Shown: positions 50,812-52,452 of the stretch, in pieces
Numbering within the stretch: position 1 is the stretch's first letter
Layout: each line of letters opens with the position of its first letter
Source of the DNA: Phycisphaerales bacterium
Lineage (GTDB): Bacteria > Planctomycetota > Phycisphaerae > Phycisphaerales > UBA1924
Assembly (NCBI GenBank): GCA_007693785.1
Contig: RECY01000015.1
Span: 1-64,000, forward strand
Direction of reading: 5' to 3'
DNA: 64,000 bases
The notes under the pieces: generated by a model
What the model saw: only the letters and a program-made list of their open reading frames with translations
Database searches by the model: none
Told to the model about the DNA's origin: nothing
Made by a program: the position numbers and the translations under genes

Positions 50812-52452
50812 ATGAGCGCCACAAGCCCAGATCGGACCGATTTCCTCGAAGAACTCCGCTGGCGGGGCCTGCTGCATCAGGCGACCGACGAATCGGGGCT
50901 GCAGCAGCACCTCGCTGAGGGCACGAGACGGGCGTATTGCGGCTTTGATCCTACGGCCGACAGCCTGACGATCGGCAACCTCGTCCCGATCATCACCCTC
51001 GTCCACTTCGCCCGGGCCGGGCACGAGCCCGTCGTCGTCATGGGCGGCGGGACGGGACTGATCGGCGACCCCAGCGGCAAGAGCGCCGAGCGCCAGCTTC
51101 GGACGCCGGAGGAAGTCGCCGCCAACGTTGAGAAGCAGCGCGACATCTTCCGGCGCGTCTTCGAGAACGCGGGCCTCCCCGAACCGACCATCCGCAACAA
51201 CTACGAATGGCTCAAAGAGCTCTCCTTCATCGACGTGCTCCGCGACGTCGGCAAGCACTTCAGCGTCAACATGATGATTCATAAAGAATCGGTTAAAGAA
51301 CGCCTGCACAACCGCGAGCAGGGCATCAGCTACACCGAGTTCAGCTACATGATTCTTCAGGCGTACGATTATTTAAAACTTTATCGTGATGAGCATGACG
51401 GCGGATGGATTACACTGCAAATTGGCGGAAGTGATCAATGGGGAAACATTGTATCCGGGATTGATCTGATTAAAAAATTTGGCCAATCGCTGTCTTTCGA
51501 TATTATGTTTAATAAGCACCCAAACGCAGACTTTGGCGAAAACCCCAATACGATTCTTGACAAATACGACGAATCCTCAAGAGTGAAGATAGAGACGTAC
51601 AGGGAGGCTGGCGGCTGGGGCTTTCTTGAATATCCAAAAATAAAGCGCGACCTAATCGAAAAATACCGAGAATCCGGCTATGATCTATCTAGAATTCTTG
51701 ATCCAGATGACGAAGAAGCGCAATTGGTTCAAAAGAATTTTAATGAAGATTTGAACAGGCTGTACCTCAAGAGAGAAGGTTGGTCAGGCGCCTTCGGCCT
51801 CACCGTCCCCCTCGTCACCAAAGCCGACGGCGGGAAGTTCGGCAAGACCGAATCCGGCGCGGTCTGGCTGACCGCGCCGGTGGATGCGGACGCGGACGAG
51901 GCGCGGGCCCGTCGCACCAGCGCGTTCGCGATGCACCAGTTCTGGCTCAACACGGCCGATGCCGACGTGGTCCGGTTCCTCAAGGTCTTCACGCTGCTCC
52001 CGCGTGCGGAGATCGAGCGCCTCGAGGCCGAGCACGCCGAGGCCCCGCACAAGCGGGCCGCACAGCGGGCGCTGGCGCATCACGCGACGGCCCTGGTCCA
52101 CGGGGAGGACGAGGCCCACGCCGCCGAAGCGGCGGCCGCCGCCCTCTTCTCCGGCGACGTGCGCGCGCTCCCGAAGCAAACCCTCTTCGACGCGATGGGC
52201 GAGGCGCCGTCCTCAAACCACGCCAAGGGCGAGCTGGCGGGCGAGGGCGTGGCGCTGCTCGACGTGCTGATCGGCACCGGGCTCGCCAAGAGCAAACGCG
52301 AGGCGCGGGAGTTCCTCGAAGGCGGGTCGGTATCGGTCAACGGCGAAAAGGCCGGGGCGGATCGGCGGCTCACCGAGGCCGACCTGCTCCACGGCGAAGC
52401 GATCGCCCTCCGACGCGGGAAGAAGCAGTGGCACCTGACGCGGTGGGCGTGA
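50812..52452 (+). CDS. tyrS: Tyrosyl-tRNA synthetase with AT-rich internal patch and insertion
   Basis: Charges tRNA-Tyr. The class I core is complete: GFDPTADSLTIGNLVP (HIGH equivalent), GGGTGLIGDPSGKSAE, KHFSVNMMI, LQIGGSDQWGNIVSGIDL, the KMSKS-like KFGKTESGAVWL, and a C-terminal S4 domain. It has 546 residues against ~420 usual. Between SGIDLIKK and AFGLTVPL there are ~100 residues where homologues have ~10. The DNA from about 51349 to 51780 is AT-rich (42% G+C counted over 51361-51780), with AGA, AAA, ATT and AAT codons unlike the rest. A smaller AT-rich bit is at 51280-51300. Frame is continuous throughout. Confidence 0.93.
   Translation: MSATSPDRTDFLEELRWRGLLHQATDESGLQQHLAEGTRRAYCGFDPTADSLTIGNLVPIITLVHFARAGHEPVVVMGGGTGLIGDPSGKSAERQLRTPEEVAANVEKQRDIFRRVFENAGLPEPTIRNNYEWLKELSFIDVLRDVGKHFSVNMMIHKESVKERLHNREQGISYTEFSYMILQAYDYLKLYRDEHDGGWITLQIGGSDQWGNIVSGIDLIKKFGQSLSFDIMFNKHPNADFGENPNTILDKYDESSRVKIETYREAGGWGFLEYPKIKRDLIEKYRESGYDLSRILDPDDEEAQLVQKNFNEDLNRLYLKREGWSGAFGLTVPLVTKADGGKFGKTESGAVWLTAPVDADADEARARRTSAFAMHQFWLNTADADVVRFLKVFTLLPRAEIERLEAEHAEAPHKRAAQRALAHHATALVHGEDEAHAAEAAAAALFSGDVRALPKQTLFDAMGEAPSSNHAKGELAGEGVALLDVLIGTGLAKSKREAREFLEGGSVSVNGEKAGADRRLTEADLLHGEAIALRRGKKQWHLTRWA
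51349..51780 (+). other. AT-rich mosaic patch inside tyrS
   Basis: 432 bp in frame. Counted per 60-base line from 51361, G+C is 42, 37, 43, 42, 52, 42 and 35%; the following line is 68%. It begins at ATTCTTCAG and ends in GAAGGT before TGGTCAGGCGCC. It encodes both conserved core (GSDQWGN) and the extra segment. Either a foreign recombinant segment or a chimeric assembly. Confidence 0.85.

Follow-up and report, generated by a model that had tools for sequence, protein, structure and literature searches.

The only tyrosyl-tRNA synthetase gene (tyrS) found in a GC-rich Phycisphaerales bacterium contains a short, sharply bounded AT-rich patch that is translated in frame, which raises the question of how foreign-looking sequence came to lie inside an essential enzyme. 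The gene belongs to the window, the whole 64,000-nucleotide stretch of contig RECY01000015.1 analyzed here. An initial annotation read the patch as a foreign segment converted into the active-site region, with a detached AT-rich islet, and noted a chimeric assembly as the alternative. Its compositional description was borne out. Positions 51338-51757 (420 bases) contain 40.7% G+C, against a window mean of 70.3% (sd 4.3%, 420-base windows), and the patch holds the sole 300-base window below 50% G+C in these 64 kb plus 170 kb more of the same genome (234 kb sampled). GC at third codon positions (GC3) is 89% over residues 20-150 and 100% over residues 151-154, then passes through islet, spacer and patch (Table 1); it is 46% over residues 223-322 (n = 100) and 95% over residues 326-345 (n = 20). 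The edges are sharp in GC3, and the islet is indeed separated from the patch by codons of host composition.

Table 1. Features of tyrS and its AT-rich patch (window coordinates)
Feature	Position	Strand	Basis
tyrS, tyrosyl-tRNA synthetase, 546 aa	50812..52452	+	TIGR00234, PF00579, PF22421, PF01479
T-I-G-N replacing class I HIGH motif, residues 53-56	50968..50979	+	T.GN pattern count
AT-rich islet, residues 155-164	51274..51303	+	GC3 30%, n = 10
Host-like spacer, residues 165-179	51304..51348	+	GC3 100%, n = 15
AT-recoded conserved TyrRS core, residues 180-222, including SDQWGN (51430-51447)	51349..51477	+	GC3 35%, n = 43
K221-K222	51472..51477	+	Aligned to R207-K208 of B. stearothermophilus TyrRS (2ts1); insert directly after
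In-frame insert, 103 residues (223-325), predicted helical	51478..51786	+	Without counterpart in solved TyrRS alignments
Host-like downstream core, FGLTVPLVTKADGGKFGKTE, then C-terminal domains including S4-like	51787..52449	+	GC3 95% from residue 326; PF22421, PF01479
KMSKS-like KFGKT	51835-51849	+	

The open reading frame continues across the patch without a stop codon, as had been stated, and GGSDQWGN (51424-51447) is encoded inside it. The product scores 357.6 bits against the TIGR00234 profile (cut-off 113.8), with the match in two stretches, and contains both the GSDQWGN-type motif and a KMSKS-like KFGK. It lacks the HIGH signature and reads TIGN in its place; T.GN occupies this position in 124 of 143 tyrS rows from the window's family (18 could not be read by the pattern) and in 11 of 16 rows from outside it. 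Because the curated profile cut-off is exceeded and TIGN is common to the family, the TyrRS assignment was kept. Residues D208, Q209, G211, N212, K342 and K345 are invariant among 40 sequences, and the nearest solved TyrRS is that of B. stearothermophilus by sequence and that of E. coli by fold. A search of the window's genome for a second tyrS returned its own gene as the single match. With no other tyrS found, and with both the frame and the conserved residues intact, we infer that the enzyme still works. Elsewhere in the family, genomes G367 (L193) and G309 each carry two tyrS-like genes, the second of G367 being divergent with an ordinary short loop. A further length-variable loop precedes the TLQ strand (~51385-51411), reading RDEHDGGWI in the window and RDYAKYGLDGRV in G028 (L089/L207).

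The patch divides into conserved core (43 codons, residues 180-222) and an in-frame insert of 103 codons (residues 223-325), since residues 223 to ~322 lack a counterpart in solved TyrRS. Borders were placed at residues 223 and 325; the match to solved TyrRS ends after the SDQWGN helix and resumes around FGLTVPLVTKADGGKFGKTE. The insert thus lies between the SDQWGN helix and the KMSKS-like segment, and it cuts the TyrRS profile match in two. The view of the patch as active-site core accordingly applies to residues 180-222 and not to what follows them. A structure model (40 sequences, mean pLDDT 83.4) shows the insert as helical, with 10-residue block means of 49-81 and helices at 207-234, 245-251, 254-265, 270-287, 292-296 and 301-321; we therefore regard helix formation by the insert as predicted at low to moderate confidence. 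Residues R207/K208 of the B. stearothermophilus enzyme presumably contact the tRNA acceptor stem, and a literature search on this contact listed no match concerning TyrRS. By analogy, the insert, which adjoins the equivalent basic pair, probably sits beside the acceptor end of the tRNA, where it may be tolerated or may adjust RNA contacts.

Scans of the insert against protein families and solved structures gave a best E value of 0.13. Several kinds of element were considered and rejected. An intein was discounted because a Pfam scan of the insert was empty at E 10, and a group I/II intron or RNA element on the lack of any Rfam match at E 1 over 51000-52100, together with the open frame. A template-repeat search of the genome for a diversity-generating retroelement, by DNA and by protein, recovered only the gene itself. 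The insert has no Y1 transposase match, and its repeats are short and imperfect only, which disfavors an IS200-like or REP-associated element.

Comparison with relatives shows that the insert occupies a hypervariable site. Of the 180 tyrS loci compared, 159 are distinct: 143 belong to the window's Phycisphaerales family and the remaining 16 to further families of its order and class. The window's genus was represented among the genomes searched by the window's genome alone. Among 163 family genomes, 9 had no tyrS match, and 12 of the 154 matching genomes (G090, G297, G309, G430, G434, G435, G463, G470, G476, G480, G492 and G494) yielded no tyrS row. Locus L122, which reads 2 residues and has its second alignment piece off frame, was left out of the sister-pair, flank, close-relative, basic-pair and step/gradient tests. 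Between the landmarks at residues 222 and 326, all 16 non-family rows have 4 (14 rows), 6 or 10 residues, whereas family rows have 3-103. Family inserts (n = 143) are at most 10 residues long in 45 rows, at least 20 in 69, at least 35 in 40 and at least 60 in 18, and no compared tyrS row has a stop codon in the insert. A broader sampling of TyrRS from bacteria and phages drew on ~94 loci, bacterial and viral, in which 103 stretches fitted the motif, 30 of them lacking a measurable loop. Of the 73 loops that could be measured, 61 are of ordinary length, which is 17 by the longer measure used there and equal to 4 by the landmark measure.

On a tree of 148 core sequences built without the insert and its upstream flank, inserts changed between long and short (threshold 35 residues) at least 30 times. 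Detectable kinship between inserts is mostly confined within genera, L013 and the L134 group being the clear exception. Related inserts may be constrained, with dN of 0.03-0.09 against dS of 0.65-1.33 (L105/L109, L127/L149 and L127/L134), or freely diverged (L013/L134, dN 0.76 and dS 0.72; L105/L141, dN 0.69 with saturated dS). Among long-insert genomes, 29 of 40 retain the basic pair that precedes the insert, versus 82 of 89 short-insert genomes (p = 0.005, uncorrected for relatedness). From these sequence comparisons, TyrRS of the family appears to have repeatedly gained, lost and exchanged in-frame inserts at this one site. AT-rich tyrS inserts recur in 30 other genomes. Because most of the patch is insert at such a site and the pattern recurs so widely, the idea of a one-off conversion of the active-site region was abandoned.

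Inserts in relatives are accompanied by an asymmetric change in composition. In the 17 other genomes with inserts of at least 60 residues, GC3 falls by 30 points in the insert, by 24 in the nearest 15 codons upstream and by 8 in the next 15; downstream, it falls by 4 in the first 15 codons and then by zero. This dip is absent from 90 short-insert genomes. Taken over 45 codons, the contrast of long-insert with short-insert genomes is significant on the upstream side (p = 2e-5) but not on the downstream side (p = 0.51). Phylogenetically independent pairs gave the same picture, with an upstream mean of 10.7 pairs for, 1.8 against and 14.6 undecided (median p 0.02, range 0.0002-0.34) and a downstream median p of 0.69. 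Among inserts of at least 30 residues (n = 51, window's gene excluded), insert composition correlates with that of the upstream flank (rho 0.73) and little with that of the downstream flank (rho 0.14); once insert composition is known, insert length adds nothing to prediction of the upstream drop. Masking of a downstream change by stronger conservation was rejected, as DNA identity in short-insert genomes is 0.74 upstream and 0.69 downstream.

In sister pairs whose inserts differ, DNA identity over the 15 codons upstream shifts by -0.06 (n = 15); where the insert is shared, the shift is +0.05 (n = 9). The difference is significant (p = 0.010) and is not seen downstream (p = 0.81); the upstream-versus-downstream contrast inside the 15 different-insert pairs is not significant (p = 0.16). 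Four different-insert pairs (L155/L170, L161/L171, L103/L118 and L028/L179) have no upstream loss. Of the AT-rich-insert genomes (30 including the window's), 14 have a close relative; identity to that relative is reduced by 0.12 over the 30 codons upstream and is unaltered downstream.

Similar inserts were sought in other genes of family members (17 leuS, 17 alaS, 17 ileS and 20 secA), a small control. The mean GC3 shift was -3 for leuS (n = 11), +4 for alaS (n = 1) and -11 for ileS (n = 6), with no inserts in secA; tyrS gave -16 by the same procedure for 8 inserts, two of which (L016, L028) lie elsewhere, near the frame start. Control inserts are mostly at host composition, the exceptions being a transposase-containing leuS insert in G008 and one ileS insert in G017. 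The former (L308) is an in-frame insert of ~212 residues, at about codons 283-500 of a 1205-aa open frame, that contains an IS200-like Y1 transposase domain (PF01797, E 3.4e-8) and, at GC3 35-75%, is AT-richer than its flanks. In the latter (L405), a variable insert of ~35 residues follows 15 codons whose GC3 is 60 points lower, a one-sided AT-rich pattern like that of tyrS. Two GC-rich leuS inserts, of ~40 and 59-79 residues, are common to five family members (L314, L312, L313, L318 and L320), the window's genome among them.

For the window's own gene, we favor import of the patch through recombination, the donor being the tyrS of a relative that is AT-richer and unsampled, a proposal we hold at about even confidence. 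At residue 179/180, a step in GC3 outperforms a gradient by 7.1 log units, an advantage reached in 0 of 500 gradient simulations, and the gradient model was rejected. The similarity pattern of residues 180-222 is discordant with that of the rest of the enzyme (rho -0.15 versus a mean of 0.29, rank 2 of 146). Segments of 43 residues starting at 20-140 and 326-491 have a normal pattern, and the pattern weakens in those starting at 150-170, which extend into the patch. The patch thus combines sharp edges with a discordant segment relationship, as expected of an import, and it is the step, the islet and the discordant core together that favor import here. The discordance covers 43 residues and could partly reflect AT-driven replacements, for example R to K and V to I. 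The insert and recoded core are alike in composition (GC3 46% and 35%), and we infer a single donor and import for the patch. The imported block would run from residue 180 to 325, with a short converted islet at 155-164, and would have delivered the 103-residue helical insert together with its upstream flank into the space between the SDQWGN helix and the KMSKS-like segment, the family's site of repeated insert exchange.

Searches of the collections available, which sampled them or kept a capped number of loci, returned no donor sequence for the patch and no other organism carrying the insert. Among 397 genomes of the class, 111 contain a match to the 144-aa patch, the listed rows covering almost only its core part (residues ~1-72); two listed rows reached further, G033 to residue 124 (37% identical) and G015 to residue 139 (33%). 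Against viral contigs it matched 26 loci, all inside patch residues 1-65, and against phages 28 records, none with 80% coverage. A 105-aa insert query gave nothing confirmed among genome contigs and viral contigs, only matches of E 5 or worse among phages and plasmids, and its own gene plus one weak row (E 0.004, 41 residues) among 392 genomes of the phylum. The recoded core found no donor among its best 80 loci in genome contigs, and a family TyrRS query found nothing in viral contigs. At the protein level, the recoded core is matched best at ~70-74%, alike in its own order and in distant bacteria, and a distant donor is thus unsupported. In the collections tried, the insert has no convincing relative. 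The case for a foreign origin keeps its step, islet and discordant core.

A rival account, possible if on the unlikely side for this gene, is that the AT-rich state arises and is kept in place, the variable helical loop and preceding codons becoming AT-ending without import. Drift or selection could be responsible, through slow codons, weakly structured mRNA or the disappearance of whatever force holds GC3 near 90%. For the family-wide upstream asymmetry, this is a serious rival. In the 30 other AT-rich-insert genomes, a clean step was rejected (0 of 500 simulations) and a gradient was not (60 of 500). Raw likelihood had the step beating the gradient in 24 of these 30, support that was withdrawn because a gradient alone yields such a sum in 60 of 500 draws. 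Comparison across relatives thus recovered AT-rich inserts and the upstream asymmetry, but as a gradient and not the step of the window. Moreover, the L105/L109 inserts have kept GC3 of 46-47% despite a synonymous divergence of 1.33 (0.47 in the far-5' core and 0.54 in the downstream core), persistence that would not be expected of old imports drifting to host composition. These two results leave uniform import for the whole family unsupported. Inserts also exceed the upstream core in synonymous divergence, in GC-rich groups too (L127/L134, L127/L149 and L006/L189). Against an in-place cause, GC-rich long inserts are fast at synonymous sites and yet have not become AT-rich (L127 group, GC3 85-91%). 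An in-place cause is further opposed by the step and islet of the window's own profile, by the mostly host-like GC3 of the 18 leuS, alaS and ileS inserts, by the nearly untouched downstream codons and by the failure of insert length to predict the upstream drop once composition is known.

A more elaborate version of exchange, which we consider doubtful, would make the site an exchangeable cassette. Directional exchange, with the 3' border fixed and the 5' border variable, would repeatedly install unrelated helical inserts plus ~5-40 upstream core codons, perhaps through conflict over tRNA or the enzyme, and the AT-rich, upstream-biased composition would be its footprint. It is also improbable that the insert is a mobile element or a remnant of one that landed in frame and was kept. 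The transposase domain in the leuS insert of G008 offers a precedent, the L155/L170 comparison resembles simple gain or loss of an AT-rich stretch, and one weak Y1 transposase match lies elsewhere in the window's genome; the tyrS insert itself, however, gave no match to transposase or phage families and lacks both clear terminal repeats and a second genome copy, and this reading leaves the recoded core upstream unaccounted for. Finally, a chimeric assembly that joined a piece of another organism's tyrS into the contig would suit a 45-contig assembly and the sharp composition change at both edges, but is very improbable given that the frame is open through both edges with motifs intact, that the insert was found in no other organism in the collections searched, and that comparable AT-rich inserts recur in other assemblies, some on megabase contigs (L195, 1.57 Mb; L186, 3.49 Mb; L023, 1.06 Mb).

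Essential, slowly evolving enzymes serve as stable markers. In this family, one such enzyme exchanges a whole helical piece at a single site from one sister species to the next, and the base composition of the incoming piece carries over into conserved codons on just one flank. Family tyrS illustrates in nature how an essential gene can be remade time after time at the same spot, and its ~140 enzymes form a natural set for asking by which route, import or change in place, an essential protein gains a new domain, and whether the insert alters tRNA recognition. The locus also cautions against labelling such AT-rich patches as contamination. The titles and abstract openings of the literature matches listed contain no description of such a TyrRS insert site.

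Compared with known systems, the window's enzyme resembles bacterial TyrRS (TIGR00234) in its fold, SDQWGN, KFGKT and C-terminal S4-like domain, and differs in its 103 extra residues, 43 recoded core codons and TIGN for HIGH. Mosaic genes formed by intragenic homologous recombination display sharp composition edges and discordant similarity of a segment. The window's tyrS shares these edges and the discordant segment, along with an islet, but here the block also brings in a new insert, at a site used repeatedly within the family. Rickettsia palindromic elements are in-frame inserts in coding genes; they likewise add an in-frame peptide to conserved genes, whereas the tyrS insert shows no clear palindrome and no further copy in its genome. 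In fungal mitochondrial TyrRS CYT-18, lineage-specific insertions gave a new RNA-binding function, group I intron splicing, and are small (Ins 1-5 and H0) and common to one fungal lineage (PMC4275181). Both are TyrRS with acquired lineage-specific insertions; the family TyrRS differs in having one site, with mostly unrelated inserts that change between sister species.
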